From Pseudonocardia hierapolitana (lineage in GTDB: Bacteria; Actinomycetota; Actinomycetes; Mycobacteriales; Pseudonocardiaceae), in NCBI RefSeq assembly GCF_007994075.1, contig NZ_VIWU01000001.1, positions 5,332,001 to 5,396,000 on the forward strand: DNA of 64,000 nucleotides, in the 5' to 3' direction. Position numbers and translations under genes: made by a program. Below are positions 1,517 to 56,186 of the stretch, piece by piece (positions within the stretch are counted from its first letter, which is position 1; the number at the start of each line of letters is the position of its first letter). A model generated the notes under the pieces. It had not been told where the DNA came from, ran no database searches, and was given only the letters and a program-made list of their open reading frames with translations.

Positions 1517-1558
1517 TTGACCACCACCCGCCCGTGTGCTGTTCTTACACCGGTGTAA
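1517..1558 (+). promoter_or_regulatory. Promoter with perfect LacI-type operator
   Basis: A -35-like TTGACC lies at 1517-1522. A perfect 14-bp palindrome, TTACACCGGTGTAA, lies at 1545-1558 with central CG, in the -10/+1 zone upstream of the binding-protein gene. This fits control by one of the two adjacent LacI proteins. Confidence 0.55.
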
Positions 1559-1590
1559 ACGCCGCGACGACGGGGCGAGGGGACGAGGAC

Positions 1591-2865: not shown

Positions 2866-2869
2866 CGGC

Positions 2870-3973: not shown

Positions 3974-4018
3974 GCAGCGGGCCCGCCGGCGACCCTCCTC
4001 GGTAATCCCGTTGGGTAG

Positions 4019-4040
4019 TGAGTGCGCGCTCATTTACTCT
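4019..4040 (+). promoter_or_regulatory. Leaderless promoter and candidate operator of the tetR gene
   Basis: TGAGTGCGCGCTCA (4019-4032) matches its reverse complement at 12 of 14 positions. It abuts a -10 box TACTCT (4035-4040) placed six bases before the GTG start at 4047, the spacing of leaderless actinobacterial genes. This is a plausible TetR autoregulatory site. Confidence 0.45.
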
Positions 4041-4046
4041 GGCGCC

Positions 4047-9948: not shown

Positions 9949-10000
9949 GATACCCACCGGGGGTATCGATGGGAGAGAGATATACACCCCTCGGGGGTAT
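9949..10000 (-). promoter_or_regulatory. Two candidate operators upstream of the DHA2 pump
   Basis: Site 1 (9949-9967) is GATACCC-ACCGG-GGGTATC with perfect 7-bp arms. Site 2 (9982-10000) starts ATACACCCC and ends GGGGGTAT, with one to two mismatches. Both lie within 75 bp of the start codon, 33 bases apart. The shape resembles CsoR-like or some TetR-like operators; the cognate regulator is not identified. The rest of this 200-bp gap shows no further signal. Confidence 0.5.
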
Positions 10001-39624: not shown

Positions 39625-40218
39625 GTGGCTGGGGACCCGATCAGCGAGAAGCCGCGGCGGCGCCGGGCCGACGCGGAGCGCAACGTGGCGGCGATCGTGG
39701 CGGCGGCCCGTGACCTGCTGTCCCGCGGAACGCTGCCGTCGATGGGCGAGGTCGCGGTGGCCGCCGGCGTGGGCCGGGTCACGCTCTACGCGCACTTCGC
39801 GTCCCGCGAGGTCCTCCTCGACGCCGTCGTCCGCCAGGTGATGGCGGAGACCGATCAGGTACTGACCGGTCTCCGCCTCGACGACGACCCGCCGCAGGTC
39901 GCGCTGGACCGGCTGGTCCGCACGTCCTGGCAGATCCTGGACCGTCAACGCACCGTGCGGTCCGTTGCGCTCGCCGAGCTCGGCCCCGAGGCCCTGCGCG
40001 AGCAGCACGACCGGGTCGCCCACCACGTCGAGCGCCTGATCGCACGGGGGAAGGACGACGGCGTGTTCCGCGCGGACCTGCCCGAGCCGTGGCTGGTGGC
40101 GGCCTTCTACGCCACGGTGCACGCCGCGGCCGACGAGGTCAGCGGCAGCCGGCTCGACGCACGGGTGGCGCCCGACGTGCTGGGCGCCACCCTGCGGTCG
40201 ATCCTCGAGGTGGGCTAG
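39625..40218 (+). CDS. TetR-family regulator of the DHA2 pump
   Basis: A 197-residue TetR repressor with a helix-turn-helix at about residues 20-65 (AIVAAARDLLSRGTLPSMGE, GVGRVTLYAHFASREVLLDA). It starts at a GTG four bases after the pump stop and is cotranscribed with it. The palindrome at 38188-38203 is its likely operator. The stop overlaps the DUF305 gene's end by four bases (convergent). Confidence 0.88.
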   Translation: MAGDPISEKPRRRRADAERNVAAIVAAARDLLSRGTLPSMGEVAVAAGVGRVTLYAHFASREVLLDAVVRQVMAETDQVLTGLRLDDDPPQVALDRLVRTSWQILDRQRTVRSVALAELGPEALREQHDRVAHHVERLIARGKDDGVFRADLPEPWLVAAFYATVHAAADEVSGSRLDARVAPDVLGATLRSILEVG

Positions 40219-40829
40219 CCGAGGAGCTGCCGCATCCGTTCGATCTCGGCGGTCTGCCCGCTGATGATCTGGGTGGCGAGCTGCTTGGCCTCCGCGTTCG
40301 CGCCGCCTGCCACCTCGCGCTCCGACTCGGCGACGGCGCCCTCGTGGTGCGCGATCATCATCTCGAGGAACGTCCCGTCGAACGTCGCGCCGGTTGCGGC
40401 CCCGAGCGAGTCCATGTCGGCCTGGGCCATCATCCCGTTGGAGTGGTCCATCCCCGAGTGGTCCATCCCACCTTCCACGGGCGGGGTGCCCCAGGCCGAG
40501 AGGAAGCCGTTCAGGGTGGCGATCTCCGGGTCCTGCGCCGCCCGGATCTGCTCGGCGAGCGCCTTCACCTCTGGGCTCTCCGCCCGCTGCAGCGCCATCT
40601 CCGCCATCGCCAGTGCCTGCTGGTGATGGGGGATCATCATCTGGGCGAAGCGGATGTCGGTGTCGTTGTGCTGCGCCCCGGCACCGGACGGGGCGGTGAC
40701 CGGCGGCTGGATGGTGGCAGGAGCGGCGGCGGGCGTGGGGCTGCCCCCACCACAGGCGGACAGCGTGACGGACAGGACGAGCGCCGCGCCGGCCACGGCG
40801 GCACGGTTGGACCTGCGAATGGTGGACAT
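40215..40829 (-). CDS. DUF305 exported lipoprotein of the copper operon
   Basis: A 204-residue lipoprotein with a signal peptide and the lipobox TLSAC (Cys near residue 26). Two DUF305 repeats are marked by MMIPHHQQALAMAEM near 65 and MMIAHHEGAVAESE near 155. Between them is the Met/His segment GMDHSGMDHSNGMM, encoded by a 15-bp tandem repeat (40441-40470) and well suited to Cu(I). DUF305 proteins are ferritin-like and commonly accompany copper resistance genes. It is last in the csoR-copZ-copA operon. Confidence 0.85.
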   Translation of the reverse strand: MSTIRRSNRAAVAGAALVLSVTLSACGGGSPTPAAAPATIQPPVTAPSGAGAQHNDTDIRFAQMMIPHHQQALAMAEMALQRAESPEVKALAEQIRAAQDPEIATLNGFLSAWGTPPVEGGMDHSGMDHSNGMMAQADMDSLGAATGATFDGTFLEMMIAHHEGAVAESEREVAGGANAEAKQLATQIISGQTAEIERMRQLLG

Positions 40830-40882
40830 GCGTGTTTCCTCTGCGGAAGAAGGGTCGGTGAGGAACGCGGGGCGAGCGCTCT

Positions 40883-41296
40883 CTACAGCCGGAACACGCA
40901 GAGGGAGAGGAACAGGGGCTGGGGTGGGGCGCGCGGTGGCGACCACCTCGACCGGATCAGGGCCGAGACGCCGCGAGTCCTGCCGCCCGCTGCGACGCCG
41001 AGCGCGTGCAGCACGATGCCGGCGAGCACCGTGAGCAGGATGAACGCGCAAGCCGCCATGTCGTCGTGGTGGTGGCGCGGGTTGCCGGACGAGGCGACCG
41101 TCTCCGGGCCGACGTCGGGCATCGCCATGGCGCTCTCGGCCGGCGCCGTCACGGAGTGGGAGTCGAGTGGGCTGATGTGCCCCGCCACCGGGTCCGTGGC
41201 CGCCACGCCGTGCATGGCGAGGAAGCCGGTGGCGGCCATGGCGAGCAGGACGAGGCGGACGATGCCCGCCGCGATTGCTCCCGTCCCGGTGTTCAC
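40883..41296 (-). CDS. DUF6153-like membrane protein of the copper operon
   Basis: A 137-residue protein with an N-terminal helix (IVRLVLLAMAATGFLAMHGV), an exported His/Met-containing loop (PRHHHDDMAA) and a second helix (CAFILLTVLAGIVLHALGVA), ending in a basic tail. The layout matches DUF6153 proteins that accompany DUF305 in actinobacteria; their function is unknown, but the histidine cluster outside the membrane suggests copper handling. It starts at GTG 41296. Confidence 0.65.
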   Translation of the reverse strand: MNTGTGAIAAGIVRLVLLAMAATGFLAMHGVAATDPVAGHISPLDSHSVTAPAESAMAMPDVGPETVASSGNPRHHHDDMAACAFILLTVLAGIVLHALGVAAGGRTRGVSALIRSRWSPPRAPPQPLFLSLCVFRL

Positions 41297-41355
41297 CGCA
41301 CCCCATGATGCCGCGACGGGGCCGGCCCGGGTGCACCGGGCCGACCCCGTCACGA

Positions 41356-43584
41356 TCAGCGGAACCGGCGCAGCCGCAGACTGTTCGCCACGACGAACGC
41401 CGAGCTGAAGGCCATCGCCGCCCCGGCGATCATCGGGTTGAGCAGGCCGGCCGCCGCCAGCGGAAGGGCGGCCACGTTGTAGGCGAACGCCCAGAACAGG
41501 TTGCCCTTGATCGTGGCGAGCGTCCGGCGGGAGAGCCGGATCGCGTCGGCCGCGGCCCGCAGGTCGCCCCGGACCAGGGTGATGTCGCTCGCCTCGATCG
41601 CCACGTCGGTGCCGGTGCCCATGGCCAGCCCCAGGTCGGCCTGGGCGAGTGCGGCGGCGTCGTTGACCCCGTCGCCGACCATGGCGACGACCTTGCCCTC
41701 GTCCTGCAGCCGCTTGACCACGTCGACCTTGTCGGCCGGCAGGACCTCGGCCACGACCTCGCTGATGCCGACCTCGGCGGCCACGGCATGCGCTGCGGCC
41801 TCGTTGTCGCCGGTGAGCAGCACGGGGGTGAGCCCGAGCCCTCGCAGCTGTGCGATGGCCTCTGCCGACGTGGGCTTCACCGTGTCGGACACCACCAGGA
41901 CCGCGCGAGCCGCGCCGTCCCACGCCACGGCGACCGCCGTGCGCCCGTCGGACTGCGCCGCCGCGAGGTGCGCGGCGAGGCCGGGGCCGAGCGGCTGGCT
42001 CCACTCCTCCAGCAGCGCCGGTCGGCCGACGAGCACGGCGTGCCCGTCGACGATCCCCTGCACCCCCAGGCCCTCGACGGCTGCGAACCCCTCGACGGCC
42101 GGGAGCGCTCCGACGCGGTCGCGGGCACCCCAGGCGATCGCCGCGGCGATCGGGTGCTCGGATGCGTCCTCCAGCGCGCCGGCGAGCCGCAGGACCTCGT
42201 CCTCGTCGACGCCGTCACCGGGGTGCACGGCGACGAGCTCCATCCGGCCGGTGGTGACGGTGCCCGTCTTGTCCAGCACGACGGTGTCGATCCGGCGCGT
42301 GGACTCCAGCACCTCGGGACCCTTGATCAGGATGCCCAGCTGGGCACCCCGGCCGGTGCCGACCAGCAGCGCGGTGGGCGTCGCGAGCCCCAGCGCACAG
42401 GGGCAGGCGATGATCAGCACCGCGACCGCGGCCGTGAACGCCGCCGCCGCACCGGCGCCCGTGCCGAGCCAGAACCCGAGGGTGGCGGCGGCGAGTGCGA
42501 TCACGATCGGCACGAACACCCCGGAGATGCGGTCGGCGAGGCGCTGCACGGCTGCCTTGCCGTTCTGGGCGTCCTCCACCAGCGTCGCCATCTGCGCGAG
42601 CTGGGTGTCCGAGCCGACCCGGGTGGCGCGCACGACGAGCCGCCCGCCCGCGTTGACGGTGGCACCGACGACCGCGTCGCCGGGCCCGACCTCGACCGGC
42701 ACCGACTCGCCGGTCAGCATCGAGGCGTCCACCGCCGAGGTGCCCTCGTCGACCACGCCGTCGGTGGCGACCTTCTCACCCGGCCGCACGACGAACCGGT
42801 CGCCCACGGCCAGCTGCTCGATCGGGATGCGCAGCTCGGCGCCGTCCCGCAGCACGGCGACGTCCTTCGCCCCCAGCTCGAGCAGCGCCCGCAGGGCCGC
42901 CCCGGCACGGCGCTTCGAGCGGGCTTCGAAGTAGCGGCCGGCGAGGATGAACGTGGTGACGCCGGCCGCCACCTCCAGGTAGATGTTTCCGGCGCCGTCG
43001 CTGGGCGAGATCGTCAGCTCGAAGGGGTGCGTCATGCCGGGCACCCCGGCCGTGCCGAACAGCAGGGCGTACAGCGACCAGGCGAAGGCCGCGAGCACGC
43101 CCATCGAGATCAGCGTGTCCATCGTTGCGGTGGCGTGGCGCAGGTTCGCCCACGCCGCCCGGTGGAACGGCCACGCCGCCCACGTGACGACCGGCCCGGC
43201 GAGCGCGAGGGAGATCCACTGCCAGTACGTGAACTGCCATGCGGGGACCATCGCGAGCGCGATGACCGGCACCGCGAGGACCGCGCTGGTGACCAGCCGG
43301 TTCCGCAGCGGGCTGGTGGGGTCGTCCTCGGGCGCTGTCTCCTCGCCGGGAGTTGCGGCCGGCCGGGGCAGCTCGGCGGTGTAGCCGGCCGCCTCGACCT
43401 GGGCCACCAGCACCGCGGGGTCGACGCCGCCCGGGGCCTCGACCCGCGCCTTCTCGGTGGCGTAGTTGACGGTGGCGGTCACGCCGTCGAGCTTGTTGAG
43501 CTTGCGCTCGATCCGGTTGGCGCACGACGCGCACGTCATGCCGCCGATCGCCAGTTCGACGGTGGTGGGGGAAGCGGTACTCAT
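41356..43584 (-). CDS. copA: Copper-translocating P1B-type ATPase
   Basis: A 742-residue Cu(I) export pump. One N-terminal heavy-metal-associated domain carries GMTCASC near residue 15. The transmembrane metal site CPC is in [15 protein letters not shown] near 398, the phosphorylated Asp is in [11 protein letters not shown] near 437, the HP motif is in SEHPIAAAI near 475 and the hinge is [11 protein letters not shown] near 632. The last helices contain [16 protein letters not shown] and [17 protein letters not shown], both diagnostic of the P1B-1 copper group. It is the fourth gene of the csoR-led operon. Confidence 0.95.
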
Positions 43585-43605: not shown

Positions 43606-44553
43606 TCAGTGACCGTGGCCGTCGTCGGCGTGGGCCGGGGCCGCGTTCGCGTCCGGGACTGCCGGGCCGGTGGGCACCGTGAACTCTGCCGTGCGCACCA
43701 CGCCGTCGTGCTGGAAATCGAGGAACAGCCGGTAGCTACCCGCGCTCGGCACCTCGGCGACGAACTCGATCTGCGGGCCGGCGGGGGTGCGCCCGTCGCC
43801 GGGCTCGCCGTCGGGGTGCACGTGAAGGTAGGCGAGGTCGCCCTCCCGCAGCGCCACCAGGTGGCCGTACGCGGCGAGGTAGGGCTGCAGATCGGTGACC
43901 GGTCGCCCGTCCTTGCTCACCGTCAGGGTGACCGGGGAGGCCTGACCGGGCACGAGCTCGCCGGTGAGCTCGACGGTGTACCCGTCGACCTGTGCCGTGC
44001 GGCTCGGTGCCTGCTCCACGGGCTCGAACGTGCCGGGCACGGCGAGGTCGACGCCGAGCGTGGTTCCCTCGCCGCCCGTCGGGGCGAAGTCGGCGAAGGC
44101 GCGGTACGAGCCGCCTGCCGGGAACGTCAGCGGGACGCTCCACGTGCCGTCGGGCGCCATCTCGGGGTGGACGTGCTGGAAACCGGTAGTGTCGCGGCGC
44201 ACGACGATCAGGTGCATCCGCTTGTCGTGCTCCACGTCGAACGCGGTGACCGGCGCCCCGTCGGGACCGATGATCTGGAAGGAGAAGGATCCCGCCTCGG
44301 GCGTCGGGTCGGTGGGCGTGAGGGTGTAACCGCCCCTGCTCGACGCCAGCCCGGCAGGCTGGTCTGCTGCGGCCTCCGCGACGGTGCCGCTGTGTGCGTC
44401 CCCGTGCCCGGCGGCCTCAACGCCGGACGGTGCCACGTCGCCGCTCGGGGCGACGGGGCGAAGGGGACCGACAGCGGTGCCGACGGCGTACGCACCTGCG
44501 ACGAACAGGACGAGCGCCGCACCGTAGGCGGAGAGCTTCGCGATTGTGTTCAT
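43606..44553 (-). CDS. Exported His-rich protein of the copper operon, unknown function
   Basis: A 315-residue protein anchored by one N-terminal helix (YGAALVLFVAGAYAVG). The exported part consists of two or three beta-sandwich-like segments with His motifs (GFQHVHPEMAPDG near 130, YLHVHPDGEPG near 245) and ends AHADDGHGH. It resembles proteins often found between copZ and copA in actinobacteria and may bind or deliver copper outside the membrane. The exact role is not known. It is spaced about 20-25 bp from both neighbours, as in a tight operon. Confidence 0.7.
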   Translation of the reverse strand: MNTIAKLSAYGAALVLFVAGAYAVGTAVGPLRPVAPSGDVAPSGVEAAGHGDAHSGTVAEAAADQPAGLASSRGGYTLTPTDPTPEAGSFSFQIIGPDGAPVTAFDVEHDKRMHLIVVRRDTTGFQHVHPEMAPDGTWSVPLTFPAGGSYRAFADFAPTGGEGTTLGVDLAVPGTFEPVEQAPSRTAQVDGYTVELTGELVPGQASPVTLTVSKDGRPVTDLQPYLAAYGHLVALREGDLAYLHVHPDGEPGDGRTPAGPQIEFVAEVPSAGSYRLFLDFQHDGVVRTAEFTVPTGPAVPDANAAPAHADDGHGH

Positions 44554-44807: not shown

Positions 44808-45089
44808 TCAGGACTTGACGAGCCGCGCGATGGCGGCGCTGGCTTCTGCGACCTTCTCGTCGGCCACCGCACCGCCCTCGGCGGCGGCCTGGGTGACGCA
44901 GTGCTTCAGGTGCTCGTCGAGCAGGCCGAGCGCCACGGCCTCGAGGGCCTTGGTGGCGGCGGAGACCTGGGTGAGCACGTCGATGCAGTACTGGTCGGTC
45001 TCGATCATCTTGGCGATGCCGCGGACCTGCCCCTCGATGCGGCGCATCCGCTTGAGGTAGGCGTCCTTGTCGTGGGCGTAGCCGTTCAT
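44808..45089 (-). CDS. csoR: Copper-sensing repressor CsoR (copy 1)
   Basis: A 93-residue all-helical CsoR/RcnR-family repressor. The Cu(I) ligands of the family are present as Cys in DQYCIDVLTQ and His-x3-Cys in DEHLKHCVTQ, matching the C-H-C triad of Mycobacterium CsoR. The conserved basic DNA face RMRRIEGQVRGIAKMIE is intact. It heads the copZ-copA operon; Cu(I) binding would release it from the promoter. A near-identical paralogue is at 45232-45513. Confidence 0.93.
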   Translation of the reverse strand: MNGYAHDKDAYLKRMRRIEGQVRGIAKMIETDQYCIDVLTQVSAATKALEAVALGLLDEHLKHCVTQAAAEGGAVADEKVAEASAAIARLVKS

Positions 45090-45118
45090 GCCGTGCTCCT
45101 CTCCGAACGCCGATGACG

Positions 45119-45135
45119 ATACCGTAGGGGGGTAT
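45119..45135 (-). promoter_or_regulatory. CsoR-type operator upstream of csoR copy 1
   Basis: ATACCGTAGGGGGGTAT contains ATACC and GGTAT ends around a G-tract, as in known CsoR operators. It lies 30 bp upstream of the start codon. Confidence 0.6.
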
Positions 45136-45198
45136 CCTATCAAGTCGGTTCGGCTGTGATGGTGGTCACGCGGGGTCCGGCGGCGGAGGTTTCGGGAG

Positions 45199-45215
45199 AT
45201 ACCCCTTGGGGCTAC
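45199..45215 (-). promoter_or_regulatory. Second CsoR-like box upstream of the copper operon
   Basis: ATACCCCTTGGGGCTAC contains CCCC-TT-GGGG between AT-rich ends. It is 110 bp upstream of csoR copy 1 and 17 bp after the end of copy 2, so it could be a second operator or a weak terminator for copy 2. Confidence 0.35.
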
Positions 45216-45231: not shown

Positions 45232-45513
45232 TCAGGACTTGACGAGACGGGCGATCGCGGCGCTCGCCTCGGCGACCTTCTGCTCCGCGACCTCGCCGCC
45301 CGTGGCCGCGGCCTGGGCGACGCAGTGGCGCAGGTGCTCCTCGAGCAGGCCGAGAGCCACCGCTTCGAGGGCCTTCGTGGCGGCCGAGACCTGCGTCAGC
45401 ACGTCGATGCAGTACTTGTCGTTCTCGATCATCTTCGCGATGCCGCGGACCTGACCTTCGATCCGCCGCAGGCGCTTGAGGTAGGCGTCCTTGTCCTGGG
45501 TGTAGCCGTGCAT
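45232..45513 (-). CDS. csoR: Copper-sensing repressor CsoR (copy 2), divergent from the nuo-like operon
   Basis: A 93-residue paralogue of copy 1, differing at only a small minority of positions by eye. The ligands are conserved (Cys in DKYCIDVLTQ; His and Cys in EEHLRHCVAQ). It sits alone between copy 1 and the complex-I-like operon, divergent from the latter, with CsoR-like G/C tracts in the shared promoter. It may therefore control that operon. GGAGGACGG precedes the ATG at 45513. Confidence 0.9.
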   Translation of the reverse strand: MHGYTQDKDAYLKRLRRIEGQVRGIAKMIENDKYCIDVLTQVSAATKALEAVALGLLEEHLRHCVAQAAATGGEVAEQKVAEASAAIARLVKS

Positions 45514-45537
45514 CCGTCCTCCTCGGGCCCTGCGCAA

Positions 45538-45632
45538 ATACTATGCCCCCCTATCCGGGCGGGTGACGCAGAGCGCACGGGCCTGGACACCGCGACGCGC
45601 ATCGGCGAGTATCCGACACCCCATACGGGTAC
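45538..45632. promoter_or_regulatory. Shared promoter region of csoR copy 2 and the nuo-like operon
   Basis: ATACTATGCCCCCCTAT (45538-45554) shares the CCCCCCTA core of the copy-1 operator, read in reverse. GTATCCG (45609-45615) and CGGGTAC (45626-45632) are near-inverted arms around ACACCCCATA, 9 bp before nuoA's start, next to its ribosome site. Together they suggest metal control of both directions. The assignment is tentative. Confidence 0.4.
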
Positions 45633-45641
45633 CGAGGAGGG

Positions 45642-45998
45642 ATGGTCGTGGCGGAGTTCGGCCCGCTGCTCGTGGTGCTCGCCGTCGGCGGTGGCCTGGT
45701 GCTGGCGTGCTACGCGCTCTCCGCGCTGGTGGCGGTCCGGCCCCCGGCCGACGGGGTCGGGGCCTTCGCAGGCGGCCTGCCCCCTCGGGAGCACGCCGTC
45801 TCGCGGTTCCACGTGCGCTGGTACCCGGTGACCATGGTGTTCCTGGCCTTCGACATGGAGATGCTCTTCATGTACCCGTGGACGCTCGTCGTGTCCCGGG
45901 TGGGGGCGGCCGCGGTGATCGAGATGTTCCTGTTCCTCGCGATCCTGCTCGCCGGGGTGCTCTACGCGTGGCGCGAGGGAGCGCTGCGGTGGACCTGA
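45642..45998 (+). CDS. nuoA: Complex I-like membrane subunit NuoA
   Basis: A 118-residue, three-helix protein. The signature FDMEMLFMYPWTLVV near residue 69 is the conserved NuoA FDxExxFxYPW motif. The loop that usually reads YECG is AFAGGLPP here, so the conserved quinone-site Cys is missing. GAGGAGGG precedes the ATG. It is first in an eight-gene operon that encodes only the membrane arm of complex I. The last 10 bases overlap the next gene. Confidence 0.85.
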   Translation: MVVAEFGPLLVVLAVGGGLVLACYALSALVAVRPPADGVGAFAGGLPPREHAVSRFHVRWYPVTMVFLAFDMEMLFMYPWTLVVSRVGAAAVIEMFLFLAILLAGVLYAWREGALRWT

Positions 45999-47149
45999 CC
46001 GCGCTCCTGCTCCGGATCGCCGCCCGCCGCCCGCACGTGCTCGTGGTGGCCGTGCCGGGCGCCACCGGTAGCCGGCTCGCGCTCGAGGCCGCCCTCGCCC
46101 GGCGCGGGTGGCCGATCGCGACGGGTCCGGCCGACGCCGACGTACTGGCCGTCGCCGGCACGCCAGGGCCCGGGCTCGCGGCGGTGGTCGACGCCGTGTG
46201 GGAGCAGGTCCCCGGGCCACGGGCCCGCATCGAGGTGCAGCCACCTGCGGACGTCGACGAACGCCTGGACGCGGCGTCCGCCCTCCTGGCCGACGTCGAG
46301 CACCAGCGCACGGAGGTCGTCGGTGGGAACGAGGGCCACCACGGAGGGCACGCGGTGCACGGCGGTCACGGGACACACGACGGACCTGCCGAGCACGGCG
46401 ATCACGCGGGCCACCCGGAGCACCACGACCATGCGGAGCACGGGGGCGAGGCCGGTGGCGACCATGCCGGCCACGGCGGCGGGCACCACCACGGCCACGG
46501 CGGGACGGTCGCCGGACTGCCGATGGCCGAGCTGGGGCCCGACCGGGACGGGCTGACACTGGACCGGCTGCACATCCCGCTCGGCCCGCTGCTCCCGGAC
46601 TGGCCCGCCGGGCTGGTGGTTCGGGTGACGCTGCAGGGCGACGTGATCCAGGAGGCCGCCGCCGAGGTCCTGGATGCCGGGCACGCGGTGCCGTTCGGGT
46701 GGCCGAGTGCCGCGGCGCGGGAGCTGGACGGCCTGGCGCGGTTCCTGGGCGTTGCCGGTTGGCCGAGCGCGGCCGGCGAGGCGCGCCGGCTGCGCGATGC
46801 GTTCCTGGCCGGTGAGCGGGTCTCCGCCGGGGTGGCCGGCCTGCTACGTCGGATCAGGCGGTCCCGCACGCTGCGCCGGCTGATCCGCGGGATCCCCGCA
46901 GGCCCCGCCGATGTTGCGGCGCTGCTCGCGACGAAGCTGGCGGCGATCGAGGCGGCGCTGCCGGTCGATTCGCGGCCCGGCGCCTCTCCCGCACCGTGGC
47001 GCGGTGGCCGGACCCCGGTTCCGCCGGAGCCGGGCGACCTTGCTGACCTGCTCGTCGGCGCCGAGCTCGCGGCGGCCCGGCTGATCGTGGCCGTCCTCGA
47101 TCCCGACATCGACCGCGCAGCGGCCGGGACGGGGGCCGGGCATGGGTGA
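45989..47149 (+). CDS. Cysteine-free NuoB/NuoD-like fusion with His-rich linker
   Basis: A 386-residue soluble protein in the nuoB-nuoD position. Residues 15-83 weakly follow NuoB (RPHVLVVAVPGATGSRLALE, ADADVLAVAGTPGPGLAAVV, WEQVPGPRARIEV), but every iron-sulfur Cys is gone; the whole protein has no Cys. Residues 117-172 hold about 19 His (HHGGHAVHGGHGTHDG and GGGHHHGHGG among them). Residues 185-235 weakly resemble the NuoD/hydrogenase large-subunit N-terminus (LGPLLPDWPAGLVVRVTLQG, DVIQEA); the rest is helical. It starts at a GTG overlapping nuoA. I infer a non-redox, metal-binding plug or regulator for the membrane arm. Confidence 0.6.
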   Translation: MDLTALLLRIAARRPHVLVVAVPGATGSRLALEAALARRGWPIATGPADADVLAVAGTPGPGLAAVVDAVWEQVPGPRARIEVQPPADVDERLDAASALLADVEHQRTEVVGGNEGHHGGHAVHGGHGTHDGPAEHGDHAGHPEHHDHAEHGGEAGGDHAGHGGGHHHGHGGTVAGLPMAELGPDRDGLTLDRLHIPLGPLLPDWPAGLVVRVTLQGDVIQEAAAEVLDAGHAVPFGWPSAAARELDGLARFLGVAGWPSAAGEARRLRDAFLAGERVSAGVAGLLRRIRRSRTLRRLIRGIPAGPADVAALLATKLAAIEAALPVDSRPGASPAPWRGGRTPVPPEPGDLADLLVGAELAAARLIVAVLDPDIDRAAAGTGAGHG

Positions 47150-48077
47150 GATGCCGGTCGTTCCGGATCCGGCCGCGCTCCCGTGGTGGTCGGCGCTGTT
47201 GTTGCCGGTGCTCCTCGGGTTCGTCACGTGGTTGGCGCTGGTCGGGGACGCGGCGTTCGCGGGCGAGCGCGCGGCCCTCGCCGTGCCGGGGCGCGAGGTC
47301 GCCCGGCTGCTCGTCGGGCAGCGCCGCCGCACGGTCGCAGGGGACGTGGTGCTGGGGCGCATCGGTGCCGGTGTGCTGCCGGTGGCCGCGCTGCTGGCCG
47401 CCGCGGTGCTGCCGCTGGGGGAGCGGCCGGTGGCCGATCTCTCGGTCGGCGTCGTCTGGTTCAACGCGATGGAGGTGCTGGCCTGGGCCGCGGTGTGGAT
47501 GGTCGGGTGGGGCTCCAACAGCGCGCTGGGGCTGGTGGGCGGCTACCGGTTCGTCGCGCAGGGGCTTGCCTACGAGCTGCCGCACATGTTCGCGATCATC
47601 ACCGCCGCGCTGGGCGCGGAGAGCCTGCGCCTCACCACGATCGTCGACGCCCAGCGCGACCTCTGGTTCGTCGTGATCATGCCGGTCGCGTTCGTGGTGT
47701 ACCTGATGTCGGCGGCCGCGATGGCGTTCTGGGGCCCCTTCGACGCGCCCGTCGACCGGGACGTCGCCGGCGGCGCGGCGGCGGAGCTCTCGGGCGTCGA
47801 CCGGCTGGTGTTCGCGGGCGGCCGGTGGCTGCTGCTCGTCACCGCGGCCGCGATGGCCGTGCCGCTCTTCCTCGGTGGGGGAGCGGGCCCGCTGCTGCCG
47901 GCGTGGGTCTGGGTGGCGGTCAAGACCGCCGCGGTGCTGGCGCTGCTGCTGTGGCTGCGCCACCGGTTCCCGACCGTGCGGATGGACCGCTACGTCGAGT
48001 TCGCCTGGGTCGTGCTGATCCCGCTGACGATCGCGCAGGCCCTGGCCGTGGCGCTGGTCGTGCTCGGAGGGGCCTGA
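47142..48077 (+). CDS. nuoH: Complex I-like membrane subunit NuoH
   Basis: A 311-residue, eight-helix NuoH homologue. The SNSALGLVGGYRFVAQGLAY segment followed by ELPHM keeps the family's SNSK...SYE(I/L)P region with its Glu. The quinone-chamber motifs are altered: the canonical GPNRVGP loop is absent (RAALAVPGREVARLLVGQRR stands there) and PFDLPEAExEL has become PFDAPVDRDVAGG. This suggests it no longer binds quinone in the usual way but still forms the proximal membrane channel. It overlaps the preceding gene by eight bases and shares one base with nuoJ. Confidence 0.82.
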   Translation: MGEMPVVPDPAALPWWSALLLPVLLGFVTWLALVGDAAFAGERAALAVPGREVARLLVGQRRRTVAGDVVLGRIGAGVLPVAALLAAAVLPLGERPVADLSVGVVWFNAMEVLAWAAVWMVGWGSNSALGLVGGYRFVAQGLAYELPHMFAIITAALGAESLRLTTIVDAQRDLWFVVIMPVAFVVYLMSAAAMAFWGPFDAPVDRDVAGGAAAELSGVDRLVFAGGRWLLLVTAAAMAVPLFLGGGAGPLLPAWVWVAVKTAAVLALLLWLRHRFPTVRMDRYVEFAWVVLIPLTIAQALAVALVVLGGA

Positions 48078-48586
48078 TGCTCGAGATCGTCCTGTTCTGG
48101 GTGCTCGCCGCGGCCGCGCTGGTGTTCGGGTACCTGGTGTTCCGGCTGGACTCGATGGCGCAGGTGACGTTCGCGCTGCTCGCGTCGTTCCTCGCCGTGG
48201 CGGGGCTCGTGCTGCTGCTCGGGCTGGGCTACCTCGGCGTCGTCATCGCGCTCATGATGGTCATCGAAATGGTGATCATGGCCGTCTTCATGATCATGTT
48301 CATGATGAACCCGGCCGGGTTGATGCCGATGACGATGGTGCACAACAAGGCCGGGTCCGCGGTGATAGCGATCGGCACGTTCGTCGTGCTGGCGGCCGGG
48401 ATCCTGCTCGTCGACTGGCCGACCCGCGAGGGCGAGCCCGCGCCCGACCCGACGTTCGCGCTCGGCGAGGCCCTGATGGGCGGGCAGATGCTCACGATGA
48501 TGACGCTCGGCGTGGGCCTGTTCGCCACGATCGTCGCCACCGTGGTGCTGTCCACCGACCGCGGCCGCTACGGCGGCGAGCGATGA
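48077..48586 (+). CDS. nuoJ: Complex I-like membrane subunit NuoJ
   Basis: A 169-residue, five-helix protein in the nuoJ position. The third helix reads YLGVVIALMMVIEMVIMAVF, unusually Met-rich and with a Glu inside the membrane, where NuoJ normally has a Tyr/Gly-rich pi-bulge. VHNKAGSAVIAIGTF follows. The divergence is high but the helix pattern, length and position between H and K support the call. It overlaps nuoK by four bases. Confidence 0.8.
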   Translation: MLEIVLFWVLAAAALVFGYLVFRLDSMAQVTFALLASFLAVAGLVLLLGLGYLGVVIALMMVIEMVIMAVFMIMFMMNPAGLMPMTMVHNKAGSAVIAIGTFVVLAAGILLVDWPTREGEPAPDPTFALGEALMGGQMLTMMTLGVGLFATIVATVVLSTDRGRYGGER

Positions 48587-48888
48587 CCCTGCAGTTGTTC
48601 CTGCTGCTCGCCGCCGGGCTGTTCGCGATCGGGCTCTACGGGGCGCTGTCCCAGCAGTCGATCGTGATGCTGATGATGGGCCTCGAGCTGATGCTGAACG
48701 GCGTGATCGTCGCGGCGGCGGCGTTCTGGTACTTCGTCTCGCCGGGCGGCACCGACGGCCAGGTGCTCATCGTCGTGATCATCACCGTGATGGCGGTCGA
48801 GATGGCGGTCGGGTTCGCCGTCGTCACGGCCATCTACCGGGCCCGGCAGGTGGACATGACCGACGACGCCGCCGATCTGAAGGGCTGA
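48583..48888 (+). CDS. nuoK: Complex I-like membrane subunit NuoK
   Basis: A 101-residue, three-helix NuoK. The two membrane glutamates needed for proton transfer are kept (MMGLELMLNGV near residue 36 and MAVEMAVGFAVV near 72). It resembles MnhC/MrpC of antiporters as well as NuoK; the operon context decides for NuoK. It starts inside the nuoJ stop. Confidence 0.88.
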   Translation: MTLQLFLLLAAGLFAIGLYGALSQQSIVMLMMGLELMLNGVIVAAAAFWYFVSPGGTDGQVLIVVIITVMAVEMAVGFAVVTAIYRARQVDMTDDAADLKG

Positions 48889-48892
48889 CGCG

Positions 48893-50683
48893 ATGCTGTG
48901 GTGGCTGGTCGCGGTGCCGCTGCTCGCGGGCGCCGGGCTCGCGCTCGCGGGTCGCCGCGCCGACCGGGCCGCGCCGGCGGCCGGGGTGCTGGTCGCGGTC
49001 GCCGTGCTGGCTCTCGCGATCACCGCGGCGCTCACCCGCCCCGCCGTCGACGCACCGCTCGTGGCCGGGGTCCGCGCCGGGCTCGCCGTCGACGGGCTCT
49101 CGGCGCTGATGGTCGTCACCGTCGCCGGTGCGACGCTGGCCGTGCTCGCCCACGCCGCGGGCGAGGCGGAGCTGCGGACCGCGCGGTTCGTCGGGTGCAT
49201 GCTGCTGTTCGCCGGGGCGATGCTCGTGACGGTCACCGCGACCACCCTCGCAGCGCTGCTCATGGCCTGGGAGGTCATGGGCGCGATGAGCTGGGCGCTC
49301 ATCGCCCACCGGTGGCGGGAACCGGAGTCGGTGCGCGCGGCGCACACGGCCTTCCTCACCACCCGACTCGCCGATGCCGGGCTCTACGTCGCCGCCGGAG
49401 CCGCGCTGGCGGGCGGCGTCGGATCGCTCGCGCTCGCCGAGCTTCCGGTCGCGCGCGAGCCGTGGCTGCACGTCGTCGCCGCCGGGCTGGTCGTCGCGGC
49501 GCTGGGGAAGTCGGCGCAACTGCCGTTCAGCTTCTGGCTGTCGCAGGCGATGCGCGGCCCGAGCCCGGTCTCGGCGCTCCTGCACTCGGCCACGATGGTG
49601 GCGGCCGGGGCGTACCTGCTGCTGCGGCTCGCTCCGCTGCTCGAGACGGCCGGGTGGGCCGCGCCGCTGGTGGCGTGGGTCGGTGCGGCGACGGCCCTGC
49701 TGATGGGGCTGGTCGCGGTCGCGCAGTCCGATCTCAAGCAGCTGCTCGCGGCCTCGACGTGCGCGCAGATCGGGTTCATGGTGCTCGCCGCGGGCGTCGG
49801 CGGCGTCGCGGGCGGGGCGCTGCAGCTGGTGGCGCACGCCGCCACCAAGAGCCTGCTCTTCCTCGGAGCGGGTGCCTGGCTCGTCCTGCTCGGGACGAAG
49901 CAGCTCGGCGAGCTCCGCGGCGCAGCGCGGCGCTACCCCCTGGTCGGCGTGACGTTCACCGTCGGCGCGGCCTCACTGGCCGGCCTCCCGCCGCTCTCCC
50001 TGTGGGTGACGAAGGACCTGGTCCTGGCCGCTGCGCTGGACCGGAGCACCGCCCTCTACGTCGTCGGCCTGGTCGCAGCGCTGGTCTCGGCGATCTACAG
50101 CGCGAAGGCGGTGTGGTGGGTCTGGCAACCGCCCCCTTCCGACGAACGGCGCGTTCGTCGGATAGGTACCGACGAACGCGCCGTTCGTCGGAACGGGGTG
50201 TTGCCGCTCGGAGTGCTCGCGCTGCTCGCCGCCCTGCTCGGGATTCCCCTTCTCACCCTCGCTTCCGCACCCTGGGAGCTCGTCCTGTCCGGAGCGCTCG
50301 CGGTCGTCGCCGTCGCGGTGACTTGGCGGGTCGCGGGGCGGATCGGGGCCCCGCCCGTGCTCGCCTCGTGGCTCGGGATCGAGCGCCTCTCGCACGCGGT
50401 GGTCGTGCGGCCGGTTCTCGGCCTCGCCCGGCTGCTCGCCCGCTTCGACGACGGCCTGGACAGCTCCGTGACCGCGGTGGCCCGGGGAACCGTGGCCGTG
50501 GCGCAGGCGCTGGACCGGCGGGGCGAGGGGGCCGTCGACGGCGCGGTGCGCGGGATCGCGGACGGGGCCCGCGCCCTCGGCAGGCTCGCCCGCCGCCCGC
50601 AGACCGGGCAGGTCCACCAGTACTACGCCCAGGCGGCCGCCGCGCTCGCGGTGCTGGCCCTCGTCGTGATCGTCATGGGGTGA
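48893..50683 (+). CDS. nuoL: Complex I-like proton-channel subunit NuoL with an in-frame repeat
   Basis: A 596-residue antiporter-like subunit. Channel residues are intact: the Glu in MAWEVMGAMSW near 125, the Lys in LGKSAQLPFSFWL near 205, HSATMV, and the Lys in HAATKSLLFLGAG near 320. The C-terminus (RPQTGQVHQYYAQAAAALAV) is typical of NuoL, so the lateral helix is probably present. Near residues 416-433 the 53-bp palindromic repeat is translated in frame as roughly DERRVRRIGTDERAVRR, in a loop between two helices. It overlaps nuoM by four bases. Confidence 0.9.
   Translation: MLWWLVAVPLLAGAGLALAGRRADRAAPAAGVLVAVAVLALAITAALTRPAVDAPLVAGVRAGLAVDGLSALMVVTVAGATLAVLAHAAGEAELRTARFVGCMLLFAGAMLVTVTATTLAALLMAWEVMGAMSWALIAHRWREPESVRAAHTAFLTTRLADAGLYVAAGAALAGGVGSLALAELPVAREPWLHVVAAGLVVAALGKSAQLPFSFWLSQAMRGPSPVSALLHSATMVAAGAYLLLRLAPLLETAGWAAPLVAWVGAATALLMGLVAVAQSDLKQLLAASTCAQIGFMVLAAGVGGVAGGALQLVAHAATKSLLFLGAGAWLVLLGTKQLGELRGAARRYPLVGVTFTVGAASLAGLPPLSLWVTKDLVLAAALDRSTALYVVGLVAALVSAIYSAKAVWWVWQPPPSDERRVRRIGTDERAVRRNGVLPLGVLALLAALLGIPLLTLASAPWELVLSGALAVVAVAVTWRVAGRIGAPPVLASWLGIERLSHAVVVRPVLGLARLLARFDDGLDSSVTAVARGTVAVAQALDRRGEGAVDGAVRGIADGARALGRLARRPQTGQVHQYYAQAAAALAVLALVVIVMG
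50138..50190. repeat. 53-bp nested palindromic repeat, copy 2, inside nuoL
   Basis: CCGACGAACG-GCG-CGTTCGTCGG, spacer ATAGGTA, then CCGACGAACG-CGC-CGTTCGTCGG; the second half is the exact reverse complement of the first. Flanking CCCCCTT and AACGGGG extend the symmetry to about 67 bp. It matches copy 1 (11217-11269) at all but two positions. It is read through in frame, so it is not a terminator here. Confidence 0.9.
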
Positions 50684-52191
50684 ACGCAGTGCTCTCGCTG
50701 ATCGTGTTCCTGCCCGCGGTGGTGGCGGCGGTGCTGCTGCTGGTGCCGGCCACCGCGCCGCGGCGGGTGTTCACCGGCGCCTGGGTGGGGGTCAGCGCCG
50801 TCGACCTCGCGCTGGTCGTGGCGGTGTGGCTCACGCCGGGCAGCGGGTTCCGGTTCGAGGAGCGGGTGGCCTGGATGCCGACCGTCGGCATCTCTTACCA
50901 CGTGGGGGTCGACGGGATCTCGCTTCCGCTCGTCGCGCTCACCGCTGTGCTCTTCGCCGGGTGCGCGGTGTTCGCGCTGCGGGAGACCCGCCGGGTGAAG
51001 AGCTACGTCGCGCTGTTCCTCGCCCTGCAGACGGTGTCGCTCGGGCTCTTCGTCGCCCTGGACCTGATCCTGTTCTTCCTGTTCTTCGACCTGTCGATCG
51101 TGTTCATGTACTTCCTGATCGCCGGGTGGGGGCACGGCGAGCGGGCCCGCGCGGCGGCGCTGAAGTTCTTCCTCTACACGTTCCTCGGGTCGCTGGCCCT
51201 GCTGCTCGGGTTCATCGTGCTGTACCTCGCCGCGGAGCCGCACACGTTCGACATCGTCGAGCTGGTCGCGGCCGATCCGCTCGCAGGCGGCGGGCCGGCG
51301 GCCGCGCTGGCGCTGCTCGCGATCGGGATCGGCCTCGCGGTGAAGACGCCGACGGTGCCGTTCCACACCTGGCTCCCGCCCGCTCACACCGAGGCGCCGG
51401 CCACCGGCTCGGCGATCCTCGCCGGGATCCTGCTGAAGATGGGCACGTACGGCTTCCTGCGCATCGCGATGCCGATCCTGCCCGACACGTGGCGCCAGTA
51501 CGCCGTGGTCGCGGTCGTCGTCGGCGTCGTGTCGGTGCTCTACGGGGCCCTGGTCGCGCTGGCCCAGAGCGACGTCAAGCGGATGATCGCCTACACGTCG
51601 GTGAACCACATGGGTTACGTGGTCCTCGGCGTGGGCGCGGCCGGGATACTGGCAGGCAGCGACGAGCAGGCCCGGCAGCTGGCCACGACCGGCGCGGTGA
51701 CCCAGATGGTGGCCCACGGCCTGATCACCGGGGCGCTGTTCCTGCTCACCGGCGTGCTCTACGACCGCGGCCGCACCTACGACATGGCCGCCTACTCCGG
51801 GCTCGCGGCGCGGACGCCGCTGTTCGCGGGCGTGTTCGCCGTGGCAGCGTTCGCGTCGCTGGGTCTGCCCGGCTTCGCCGGGTTCATCGCCGAGTTCCAG
51901 ATCTTCACCGGCGCGCTGGCGTCCGCGCCGGTCGCGACCGCGCTCGCCGTCCTCGGCATCCTCGTCACGGCGGCGCTGTTCCTCCGCGCGCTGCAGCGGG
52001 TGTTCCTCGGCCCGGAACGCCTGCCGGACGCGCCGGGCACGCCACGGCCGTTCGCCGACCTGCACCCCAGCGAGACGGTCGCGATCGTCCCGCTGCTGGC
52101 GCTGGCCACCGTGATCGGGGTGCTGCCCCGGTTCCTGCTCGACGTGATCGAACCGGCGTCCCGCGCGCTCGTGGAGCTGGTCGCCCGGTGA
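50680..52191 (+). CDS. nuoM: Complex I-like proton-channel subunit NuoM
   Basis: A 503-residue antiporter-like subunit. VKTPTVPFHTWLPPAHTEAP with its Lys near residue 220 and ALAQSDVKRMIAYTSVNHMG near 292 are hallmarks of NuoM. The conserved helix-5 Glu (canonical FFE) is Asp here, in FFDLSIVFMYFLIAGWG near 127. The GTG start overlaps nuoL, and nuoN overlaps its end. Confidence 0.92.
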   Translation: MNAVLSLIVFLPAVVAAVLLLVPATAPRRVFTGAWVGVSAVDLALVVAVWLTPGSGFRFEERVAWMPTVGISYHVGVDGISLPLVALTAVLFAGCAVFALRETRRVKSYVALFLALQTVSLGLFVALDLILFFLFFDLSIVFMYFLIAGWGHGERARAAALKFFLYTFLGSLALLLGFIVLYLAAEPHTFDIVELVAADPLAGGGPAAALALLAIGIGLAVKTPTVPFHTWLPPAHTEAPATGSAILAGILLKMGTYGFLRIAMPILPDTWRQYAVVAVVVGVVSVLYGALVALAQSDVKRMIAYTSVNHMGYVVLGVGAAGILAGSDEQARQLATTGAVTQMVAHGLITGALFLLTGVLYDRGRTYDMAAYSGLAARTPLFAGVFAVAAFASLGLPGFAGFIAEFQIFTGALASAPVATALAVLGILVTAALFLRALQRVFLGPERLPDAPGTPRPFADLHPSETVAIVPLLALATVIGVLPRFLLDVIEPASRALVELVAR

Positions 52192-53615
52192 ACGGCATGA
52201 ACGAGAATCCGGCGGCGCTGCTGCCGGAGCTGTTCCTGCTCGGTGCCGCCGTCGTCGGGCTGCTGCTGGGCGCGTGGCTGCCCCGGGACCGGCAGTGGCT
52301 GGTGCGACTGCTCGCCGCGGCCGCCGCCCTCGCCGGGCTGGTCGCCACCGCCGTCGCGGCCGCCCGGCCCGACGAGCTCGTGTTCGGCACCAGCTACGCC
52401 GTCGATACGCCCACGCACGCCACGCGCGCGATCGTGCTGGTCGCGGTGCTCGTGGCGCTGGCGCTGTCGGTCGACGCGACGGCCGGGCACCGGCGCGAGA
52501 CCGAGTTCGTGGTGCTGCTGCAGCTCGGCGCGTTGGGCACGATCGTGCTCGGCGGCGCGAACGACCTCCTGCTGCTGCTCGCGGCGTTCCTGCTGGCGAG
52601 CGTGCCGTTCTACGCCCTCGCGGGCTGGGACAAGAGCTCGCTCGGCACCGAGGCCGCGATGAAGTACTACCTGTCGGGGGCGTTCCTCGGCGTCGCGATG
52701 CTCACCGGCACCGCGATCCTCTACGGCGTCGGCCGCGCCACCGGATACGGACCGCTCCGCGAGGGATTGGCCGCCGCGCCGGTGGCAGCGGCCGGGGTGG
52801 GCCTCGTCGCCGTGCTCGCCGGGCTGCTGTTCAAGGTCGGCGGCGTGCCGGGGCACTTCTGGGTCCCGGACGTCACAGACGGCACCCCGCCCGCCGTGGC
52901 CGCGATCGTCACCACGATCCCCAAGATCGGCGGTCTGGTCGCGCTGTACCGCCTGCTGACGGTCGCGGTTCCGGCCGACGCCCTCGACTGGCCGCTGCTC
53001 GTCGCGGTACTGGCCGCCGCCTCGATGACGCTGGGCAACCTCGCCGCGTTCTTCCAGACCACGGTGCAGCGGCTGCTCGCGTACTCGACGATCAGCCAGG
53101 TCGGCTACCTGCTGATCGCCGTGGCGGTCGCGGGCCGGGCGGATCTCGCCCAGCCCGCGCTGCTCTACTACGTCGCCGGGTACGCCGTCACGAACCTCGG
53201 TGCGTTCGCCGTGGTGGCCGAGTTCCCGCAGGCGCGGACGATCGAGGACTATCGCGGGATGGCCCGGCAGCACCCGGGCTTGGCCGTCGCGCTCGCCGTC
53301 TGCCTCCTCGGGCTGATCGGGACGCCGCCCACCGCGGTGTTCGTCGGGAAGCTCGCGGTGTTCACCGCGGCCGTCGACGGTGGGTTCGCGTGGCTCGCGG
53401 TTCTCGCGATCGTCAACACGGTCGCGAGCGTCTTCTACTACCTGCGCTGGATCGCGCCCACGTTCCGCGGGACCGATTCCGAGGCGGCCGCGCTGCGACC
53501 GGCCGGCACCTGGTCGGCCGGCACCGCGTACGCGTGTGCCGGCCTCGCGGTGGGGCTCGGAGTGGCGGGGGGCGTCGCCTTGCCGTTGCTGGTGGGGCTG
53601 CCCATCCCGGTGTGA
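52188..53615 (+). CDS. nuoN: Complex I-like proton-channel subunit NuoN
   Basis: A 475-residue antiporter-like subunit. TEAAMKYYLSGAFLGVAML near residue 150, LLFKVGGVPGHFWVPDVTDG near 213 and LAYSTISQVGYLLIAVAVAG near 298 match NuoN. The helix-5 Glu of other NuoN proteins is replaced: the segment reads LAAFLLASVPFYALAGW, with no acidic residue. It starts at a GTG overlapping nuoM and is the last gene of the operon. Confidence 0.9.
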   Translation: MNGMNENPAALLPELFLLGAAVVGLLLGAWLPRDRQWLVRLLAAAAALAGLVATAVAAARPDELVFGTSYAVDTPTHATRAIVLVAVLVALALSVDATAGHRRETEFVVLLQLGALGTIVLGGANDLLLLLAAFLLASVPFYALAGWDKSSLGTEAAMKYYLSGAFLGVAMLTGTAILYGVGRATGYGPLREGLAAAPVAAAGVGLVAVLAGLLFKVGGVPGHFWVPDVTDGTPPAVAAIVTTIPKIGGLVALYRLLTVAVPADALDWPLLVAVLAAASMTLGNLAAFFQTTVQRLLAYSTISQVGYLLIAVAVAGRADLAQPALLYYVAGYAVTNLGAFAVVAEFPQARTIEDYRGMARQHPGLAVALAVCLLGLIGTPPTAVFVGKLAVFTAAVDGGFAWLAVLAIVNTVASVFYYLRWIAPTFRGTDSEAAALRPAGTWSAGTAYACAGLAVGLGVAGGVALPLLVGLPIPV

Positions 53616-55495: not shown

Positions 55496-56077
55496 ATGCG
55501 GAGGCGGCGAGAGCGCGAGGGCGGTGACCGCCCCCACGTGCTCCTGCGCGGCCGGGTGGGCCGCACCGCAGGCGCCGTCGCCGCCGCCGTCGTCACCACG
55601 AGCGGCGGCCACCTGATCGGCACCGGCGCCGCGCCCCCGCTGCCCGGCCTCCTGCTGGCGCTGGCCCTGACGGCCGTTGCCTCGTGGTGGTTGACCCGCG
55701 ACGAGCGCGGCTGGGAGCGGCTGGCCGCGGCCCAGCTCGTCGCGCAGCTCGGTGGGCACGCCCTGTTCGTCGGCACCGCGGCGGACCCGGCCGTCCACGC
55801 GGGCCACGGCGTGCTCGGGCCGGAGCTGGTCCTGCTCGCCCACGTGCTGGGCGCGGCCGTCGCGGGGGCGTGGCTGCGCTGCGGTGAGCGCAGGGCAGTG
55901 GCGGCTGCGCGCCGCGCGGTCGCCGCGCTGCGGCGACTCCTCACCCGGCTGCTGGGGGAGTGGCGCACGGCCCGGCGACCGGCGCGACGGCGCCCGACCG
56001 GCGCGCCCGTCCCCGCCGTCCTGACCGCACGGCTGCGGCATTCGATCGTGCACCGGGGGCCTCCCGCGGTCTGCTGA
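55496..56077 (+). CDS. Small membrane protein upstream of the PepSY gene
   Basis: A 193-residue protein with about four helices (AGAVAAAVVTTSGGHLIGTG, LLLALALTAVASWWLT, LAAAQLVAQLGGHALFV, LGPELVLLAHVLGAAVAGAW) and a long Arg-rich tail. Histidines recur at helix ends (GGHLIG, GGHALF, HAGHGVLG). I know the type only as an uncharacterised companion of PepSY/copper genes. It is 109 bp before the PepSY gene on the same strand; that gap holds no clear signal. Confidence 0.6.
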   Translation: MRRRREREGGDRPHVLLRGRVGRTAGAVAAAVVTTSGGHLIGTGAAPPLPGLLLALALTAVASWWLTRDERGWERLAAAQLVAQLGGHALFVGTAADPAVHAGHGVLGPELVLLAHVLGAAVAGAWLRCGERRAVAAARRAVAALRRLLTRLLGEWRTARRPARRRPTGAPVPAVLTARLRHSIVHRGPPAVC

Positions 56078-56186
56078 CCGCCGCTTCACCGGCCGACGCG
56101 GCCGGGCCCGACCCATCTGCGCATTCCCGCGCCGTCGTGCCCGCCGCACCGTGCCGTCCCCGCTGCCCTCGAACCCCGGAGACCCC

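Follow-up and report, generated by a model that had tools for sequence, protein, structure and literature searches.

A Redox-Free Complex I Membrane Arm Associated with Copper-Resistance Genes in Pseudonocardia hierapolitana and Other Actinomycetota

Introduction

What is a membrane arm of complex I for when none of the electron-transfer subunits is encoded with it? The question is raised by an operon of Pseudonocardia hierapolitana found in the 64,000-nucleotide stretch of DNA analysed here (the window; C1:5332001-5396000 of a host genome of 8.86 Mb in a single contig). Eight plus-strand genes, overlapping or almost abutting, occupy positions 45642-53615 and code for homologues of NuoA, NuoH, NuoJ, NuoK, NuoL, NuoM and NuoN as well as, in second place, a fusion protein with NuoB-like and NuoD-like parts (BD). 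The genomic link of this operon to copper is strong, and we hold it to be highly probable. The answer that we favour, at an even chance and on the ground of sequence comparisons, is that the eight products would form a Cu(I) transporter that is coupled to protons and under CsoR control, probably for export.

Composition and Conservation of the Operon

Seven of the eight products match complex I or antiporter families in a Pfam scan, BD being the one without a match. Family matches and locus comparison give a complete membrane arm (A, H, J, K, L, M and N; Table 1). NuoL, NuoM and NuoN also match models of Mrp antiporters; none of the small-subunit families of the MrpB/C/E/F/G type is in the list of Pfam matches of the operon, in which A, J and K match complex I families. 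The preliminary description, made from the letters of the window, had named the same eight overlapping genes with a Cys-free B/D fusion among them, and family matches and the BD fold bear it out.

The order A-BD-H-J-K-L-M-N on one strand was found in all 61 named loci that span 18 kb or more, and at none of these 61 loci is canonical B, C, D, E, F, G or I the best match of an open reading frame (ORF). The absence of redox subunits claimed at the outset thus holds for the long loci, with BD devoid of iron-sulfur (Fe-S) cysteines. Gene order was scored by stop codons because ORF midpoints mislead (49/61), stop-to-stop frames overrunning gene starts. The regions compared also include 16 loci from a phylum scan and 20 from a family scan. 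Three of these 36 scan loci are cut by contig ends (L044, L047, L050), and the order A-H-J-K-L-M-N is found in the 33 uncut ones. With this order and many invariant residues in its subunits, the operon type is not decaying, although a few broken copies exist.

The preliminary description had considered that a complete nuoA-N set might lie elsewhere in the genome, and intact nuoB, nuoC, nuoD and nuoI with it. The set does exist: a canonical nuo operon at C1:4.28 Mb encodes all subunits, and its intact nuoB/C/D/I belong to that complete operon. The eight-gene operon is therefore an extra one and not the damaged sole copy. A canonical-level NuoJ match is likewise present in 32 of the 36 operon-bearing genomes. 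Genome searches with PF01058 and PF00346 gave matches at other loci, the eight-gene operon not being among them. The same genome holds a Hyf/Ehr-like energy-converting complex at 1.03 Mb (L004, G000:C1:1030000-1046000, about 1366-7988) with antiporter, NuoH-like, 49-kDa-like and NuoB-like subunits, named by eye from the translations, which adjoins narGH-like nitrate reductase genes.

Loss of Redox Sites in the BD Fusion

NuoB of complex I has four Fe-S ligand cysteines and NuoD a quinone-site histidine. BD is NuoB-like over residues 1-118, has a His-rich disordered linker at about 119-178 and is a truncated NuoD-like protein over residues 180-379. Comparison of its predicted structure (AF2 pLDDT 81.7, pTM 0.78) indicates that the NuoB and NuoD folds are retained. 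Foldseek with the whole BD model returned no match at E 0.001 or better, and the NuoB half was therefore modelled and compared separately. Kinship with NuoD is weak by sequence profile and is based on the fold and an aligned loop.

The BD protein of the window has no cysteine at all, hence none of the NuoB Fe-S ligands, and no Cys column reaches 75% among 36 BD proteins. At the position of the quinone histidine all 36 have Pro, in an alignment where the genome's own NuoD has His. The His-rich linker, defined by at least 7 His in 50 residues, is found in 96 of 120 BD homologues (set A1, of 66 rows, consists of 65 of the 120 listed homologues plus the window). In L045, L048 and L052, the first search missed BD because of its divergence, and the ORF between nuoA and nuoH was taken for it. 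L045 and L048, which are distant relatives, have a NuoJ with a His-rich C-terminal tail and a His-poor BD linker. Only the membrane arm and a cofactor-free B/D remnant are left, and transport driven by something other than NADH or ferredoxin, as proposed from the window alone, is the best reading of the operon.

A Methionine Ladder in NuoJ

Ten positions of NuoJ (M27, M60, M61, M65, M68, M72, M76, M77, M85 and M87) carry Met in all 36 operon copies and in none of the 30 canonical copies drawn from the same genome list. E64 and H89 are operon-specific in the same comparison. Over 35 NuoJ columns the operon copies have 9-12 Met (mean 11.2) and the canonical ones 1-4 (mean 3.0). Residues 60-77 align with the stretch of solved NuoJ that forms transmembrane helix (TM) 3, the helix known to move during coupling. 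Spaced Met in a membrane helix are a usual means of Cu(I) passage, as in Ctr1 and CusA. NuoK adds M29, M31 and M70, present in 36/36 operon and 0/30 canonical copies and situated near two conserved acids. In a midpoint-rooted NuoJ tree, operon and canonical proteins form two groups (support 0.61 and 1.0). Set A2 holds 26 of the 36 NuoJ sequences, and the short NuoJ of L097 (132 amino acids (aa)) was used as read. The named loci were selected by two NuoJ motifs, which partly builds in their ladder conservation; the unbiased figure is that of the loci selected by BD profile.

NuoL and NuoM retain their key lysines and acids, with Asp for Glu in 33 of 35 NuoM. NuoN has lost the TM5 Glu (L135 in 31/34) and has kept the TM7 Lys (K216) in 27/34.

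Copper Genes around the Operon

Directly upstream of nuoA and on the other strand lies a copper block made of two csoR genes, copZ, a gene for a weakly YtkA-like protein, copA and a DUF305 gene (Table 1). The residue motif of both CsoR proteins fits the CsoR/RicR motif in the excerpts of PMC4531530. A csoR gene is found no more than 10 kb away in 14 of 27 phylum-scan loci, against 0.36 expected, and in 18 of 54 family-scan loci, against 0.46, and 0 of 20,000 simulations reached either observed count. Matches to NuoB-like positions alone were left out of the phylum count and one fragment (G568:C22) out of the family count; several Rubrobacter-like loci entered by BD match alone, the operon having been read in L051 and L052. 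The neighbouring CsoR proteins have the copper-type motif in 16 of 18 cases, and among 17 P-type ATPases encoded nearby 15 have CPC and 13 have YNxxxxP, the window being included in both counts.

Among 147 ORFs within 2 kb of the 36 loci, HMA (16) and CsoR (12) are the commonest Pfam matches, in counts taken from the 25 of 104 families listed; the same ORFs include 7 E1-E2 ATPases, 6 ArsR-type HTH_5, 5 DUF305 and 2 multicopper oxidases. These ORFs (set A4) are 147 of 171 neighbours from a rough gene calling based on G+C, with no more than three taken on the upstream side of each locus and two on the downstream side; set A3, of 56 rows, combines the window with 55 of 83 non-redundant pieces. 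CopC, a multicopper oxidase or a metal P-type ATPase is encoded in 7 of 12 plasmid stretches, namely those of Pseudonocardia alni, P. autotrophica, Arthrobacter FB24, Mycobacterium avium, Curtobacterium, M. paragordonae and Rhodococcus WAY2, for which the match was confined to nuoM.

Two kinds of upstream neighbour were seen in passing. An ArsR-like regulator (cluster c12) ends 4-23 bases 5′ of nuoA in L041-L044, and the stretch immediately 5′ of nuoA resembles by eye a YHS-type metal domain in L046 and L049. On the 3′ side of the operon in the window, the gene that directly follows nuoN codes for 578 residues and a putative zinc finger of phage type (PF24623; 53717-55453), and an unassigned 193-residue ORF (55496-56077) precedes a gene for a PepSY_TM membrane protein (56151-57578), possibly metal-related too.

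CsoR-Type Operators Upstream of nuoA

The sequence TACCCCCNNGGGGTA is found without mismatch in 5 of 37 loci and with at most one mismatch in 8 of 37 within the 160 bases upstream of nuoA, where shuffles gave 0.00 and 0.01. In the named set, it occurs with at most one mismatch in the 200 bases 5′ of nuoA in 17 of 75 loci, against 0.56% of random windows, and the same search gave 0/78 upstream of nuoH and 0/80 upstream of nuoL. The sequence found in L085 is exactly the core of the CsoR copZA1 site of Streptomyces lividans as given in the excerpts of PMC3902906. A CsoR operator in the operon promoter is accordingly a predicted site in part of the loci. Three operator-like boxes lie within 520 bases at csoR/nuoA of the window (Table 1), a notable clustering that was sought after the fact. 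Elsewhere in the window, two one-mismatch CsoR-box-like sites are found at 9951-9999 between genes for an MFS transporter and a DAO-type oxidase, where a copper link is not evident.

Table 1. Genes of the operon and of the upstream copper block, and operator-like boxes, in the window.
Feature	Position	Strand	Remarks
DUF305 protein	40215..41336	-	PF03713 E 4.1e-47, residues 227-372; true start probably inside ORF
CopA-type P-type ATPase	41356..43584	-	PF00122, PF00403; CPC and YNxxxxP motifs
His-containing, weakly YtkA-like protein	43606..44553	-	PF13115 E 5e-4, below cut-off
CopZ-like chaperone (HMA), 68 aa	44580..44786	-	PF00403 E 5.6e-17
Second CsoR repressor	44808..45143	-	PF02583 E 1.8e-29; motif C-x24-H-x3-C; start codon uncertain
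CsoR-operator-like box upstream of second csoR	45120..45134	-	2 mismatches
CsoR-operator-like box between the two csoR genes	45200..45214	.	1 mismatch
CsoR repressor	45232..45537	-	PF02583 E 1.8e-30; motif C-x24-H-x3-C; divergent from nuoA
CsoR-operator-like box just upstream of nuoA	45617..45631	-	2 mismatches to looser pattern, 3 to consensus; weak alone
NuoA-like subunit, 118 aa	45642..45998	+	PF00507 E 3.7e-26; H57 and M77 invariant (37/37)
BD (NuoB/NuoD-like fusion), 386 aa	45989..47149	+	GTG start at 45989, or 393 aa from 45968; Cys-free
NuoH-like subunit, 311 aa	47142..48077	+	PF00146 E 1.9e-45
NuoJ-like subunit, 169 aa	48077..48586	+	PF00499 E 1.3e-10; operon-specific Met, E64 and H89
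NuoK-like subunit, 101 aa	48583..48888	+	PF00420 E 1.5e-16; two membrane Glu retained; extra M29, M31, M70
NuoL-like antiporter subunit, 596 aa	48893..50683	+	PF00361; E127, K206, K319, K374 in 35/35
NuoM-like antiporter subunit, 503 aa	50680..52191	+	TIGR01972 486.8 bits, over cut-off; D137 33/35, K222 and K253 35/35, E405 34/35
NuoN-like antiporter subunit, 475 aa	52188..53615	+	TIGR01770 E 1.4e-93; Leu at the TM5 Glu position

Distribution and Mobility

In the phylum scan, which covered 396 genomes, clear BD matches were found in about two dozen. At 1e-3 matches are returned for 186 of the 396, mostly through NuoB-like positions of about 42-84 only, the weaker ones being mostly canonical NuoB. 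The family scan gave BD matches at 1e-12 in 50 of 200 genomes, some of which have two copies. By record titles the named loci are all actinobacterial and include many non-marine genera; they are the best 80 of at least 493 confirmed, so the absence of other phyla among them says little. The L051 copy is from Rubrobacter (99% identity).

Among 72,556 plasmid records, 14 encode BD, all from Actinomycetota by organism. In the Rhodococcus pyridinivorans plasmid the eight genes stand alone, flanked by two IS3 transposases, which suggests that they are a complete unit. Plasmid pMAH135 of M. avium carries the operon (L219, 12621-20763) near a P-type ATPase and an HMA gene; BD matches were also seen on further M. 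avium plasmids and on one of M. intracellulare. Two plasmid copies look broken, the Pseudarthrobacter one with BD split by an IS3 element (L221 10029-11191) and that of Rhodococcus oxybenzonivorans with nuoA-BD and a short piece annotated (L222 12225-13889). One stop is found within the BD match in three family-scan loci (G566, G571, G488).

Proposed Function and Alternative Explanations

Spaced Met residues, CsoR control and proton-antiporter subunits taken together make a proton-coupled Cu(I) transporter the simplest machine that would account for the operon, and the position of its genes beside copA, copZ and csoR would make export likelier than import. In the mechanism that we propose, CsoR would repress the operon and copper would derepress it, as the operators and the gene neighbourhood suggest, and the complex would work within the copper-resistance response. 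The membrane arm (A, H, J, K, L, M and N) would presumably be capped on its cytosolic side by BD at the NuoB/NuoD site, a cap that keeps the folds and has neither Fe-S cluster nor quinone histidine. Cu(I) would enter from the cytosol, perhaps gathered by the His-rich linker of BD, and would follow the Met ladder on NuoJ TM3 and adjacent Met of NuoK and NuoA, at the position of the complex I coupling axis. Proton flow through the antiporter-like NuoL, NuoM and NuoN would be the driving force. We infer copper as the transported ion, the direction of transport and its coupling to protons; Cu(I) transport by the complex appears to us evenly poised between true and false. The proposal in its full extent, that a membrane arm of complex I was converted into a dedicated proton-driven eight-subunit Cu(I) exporter with a Met conduit in NuoJ and a cofactor-free cap and has spread in Actinomycetota and on plasmids as a copper-resistance module, is tentative and has somewhat less than an even chance.

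Several observations weigh against this proposal. A good operator is missing in 29 of 37 loci and the nuoA box of the window is weak; boxes with at most two mismatches are not enriched genome-wide, with 94 against 112 for a reversed-pattern control. No csoR lies within 10 kb in 36 of 54 family-scan loci, and 31 of the 61 long named loci lack any match to csoR, copA or copZ within 9 kb of nuoJ. A copper exporter or copper enzyme is absent from 5 of the 12 plasmid stretches (R. pyridinivorans, Gordonia, Pseudarthrobacter, R. oxybenzonivorans and Ornithinimicrobium, the last having metal-regulator and DUF305 genes). The His-rich BD linker is weak in distant relatives, most of which have few His there. 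With the TM5 Glu of NuoN lost, and its TM7 Lys also in 7 of 34, proton movement may differ, and the Met of NuoJ could bind copper as a sensor instead of passing it. The excerpts of PMC3314556 and PMC6676996 read the same gene order as a proton pump in salt adaptation.

The sensor role of the Met leads to a rival that explains much of the same evidence. Cu(I) bound to Met of NuoJ and NuoK may gate proton movement through NuoL, NuoM and NuoN with no copper being carried, a valve protecting the proton-motive force by which the cell would keep its membrane potential, or power other exporters, under copper stress. The csoR linkage, the operators and the Met residues fit it equally, as do the conserved antiporter lysines of NuoL and NuoM; ten invariant Met along one subunit exceed, however, the needs of a sensor site, and the operon is able to travel as a self-contained unit. 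We consider such a valve improbable, although it keeps an appreciable share of our confidence. Still less likely is a role in salt or osmotic adaptation, with the complex acting as a proton pump or as an antiporter of the Na+/H+ (or K+/H+) type, which has been published for Salinispora, Kocuria and marine Streptomyces. The Mrp matches of NuoL, NuoM and NuoN speak for it, as do the excerpts of PMC3314556 and PMC6676996, which report the operon from marine strains and its lack in two terrestrial relatives. This reading leaves the Met ladder unexplained, however, and the features most often found beside the operon are copper-related regulators, operators and enzymes; by record titles it occurs in many non-marine genera, and the excerpts of PMC6676996 note it in rhizosphere strains and in a strain from copper-rich mine fluids.

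Two explanations would retain a redox function, and we give very little credence to either. The operon products might borrow NuoB, C, D and I (or E, F and G) from the canonical operon and still reduce quinone in a hybrid complex. The canonical set described above for this genome and the canonical-level NuoJ match in most operon-bearing ones speak for it, but the operon's own B/D cap, with its NuoB and NuoD folds, would fill the same docking site, the operon occurs on plasmids without redox subunits beside it, and its NuoJ forms a group apart from the canonical one. Copper on the His-rich linker or on the Met ladder might instead replace the Fe-S chain and couple Cu(I) oxidation to ion pumping. 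The frequency of the linker among BD homologues and the multicopper oxidases near some loci would suit this copper-based enzyme, which is nevertheless just as unlikely as the hybrid complex given the few linker His in the majority of distant relatives and the missing quinone histidine.

If the Cu(I) exporter proposed here is correct, it would be the first metal transporter derived from complex I and would open a new class of copper efflux machines in bacteria, adding a large copper-resistance machine to soil actinobacteria. It would mean that coupling machinery rebuilt from that of complex I is able to transport a metal ion with no electrons involved, and would offer a natural experiment on complex I coupling in which the redox end has been removed and the axis rewritten. 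It would also correct the common annotation as NADH-quinone oxidoreductase subunits and the published salt-adaptation reading. The predictions (copper induction, a copper phenotype and dependence on the Met residues) are directly testable.

Comparison with Known Systems

The arrangement is already known in print. A partial NDH-1 operon of seven genes in Salinispora was described as marine adaptation genes by Penn and Jensen (2012; PMC3314556), who also mentioned a related proteobacterial NuoM, and Almeida et al. (2019; PMC6676996) reported the order nuoA-hypothetical-nuoHJKLMN in Streptomyces, Salinispora and Kocuria and inferred osmotic tolerance. The excerpts of both papers neither identify the hypothetical protein nor propose copper as a substrate. 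Shirsath et al. (2025; PMC12361115) counted 2,171 species in which complex I is incomplete and 57 species whose plasmids encode Nuo subunits; their excerpts do not single out the eight-gene form. The main text of copper papers on S. tsukubaensis, S. coelicolor and Frankia contains neither "nuo" nor "NADH". Beyond the remark on the mine isolate, no printed link between operon and copper was found, in a coverage of the literature that is thin for subscription papers. The preliminary description, which had put the operon forward as an undescribed system, is thus partly supported: its observation is confirmed, the gene order had been published, and the literature searched gave no mention of the identity of BD, the conserved loss of redox sites, the Met ladder or the copper regulon. 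It had named metal tolerance as a test and had missed the copper setting, the ladder and the operator.

With complex I (NDH-1, in its 14-subunit form or the 11-subunit one without NuoEFG), the operon shares homologous A, H, J, K, L, M and N in the usual order and the NuoB and NuoD folds of BD; it differs by the absence of C, E, F, G, I and of the Fe-S cysteines, by Pro in place of the quinone histidine and by a Met-rich NuoJ and NuoK. Mrp multisubunit cation/H+ antiporters are redox-free and have complex-I-type antiporter subunits without NuoH or a B/D cap, and the operon departs from them also in its J and K, which match the complex I families PF00499 and PF00420. Unlike in energy-converting hydrogenases (Ech, Hyf, MBH), BD has no Pfam match to a NiFe-type large or Fe-S small subunit. 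In Ctr1-type and RND-type copper transporters the Cu(I) path is lined by spaced Met; the likeness is one of working mode only, on a different scaffold, and no sequence relation is claimed. The partial nuo operon of marine Actinobacteria has the same gene order and, judged by that published order, is very probably of the same family. The csoR-copZ-copA regulon of S. lividans, although an eight-subunit complex is outside the three CsoR sites in the excerpts of PMC3902906, has the same kind of neighbour genes and, as predicted for part of the loci, of operator.

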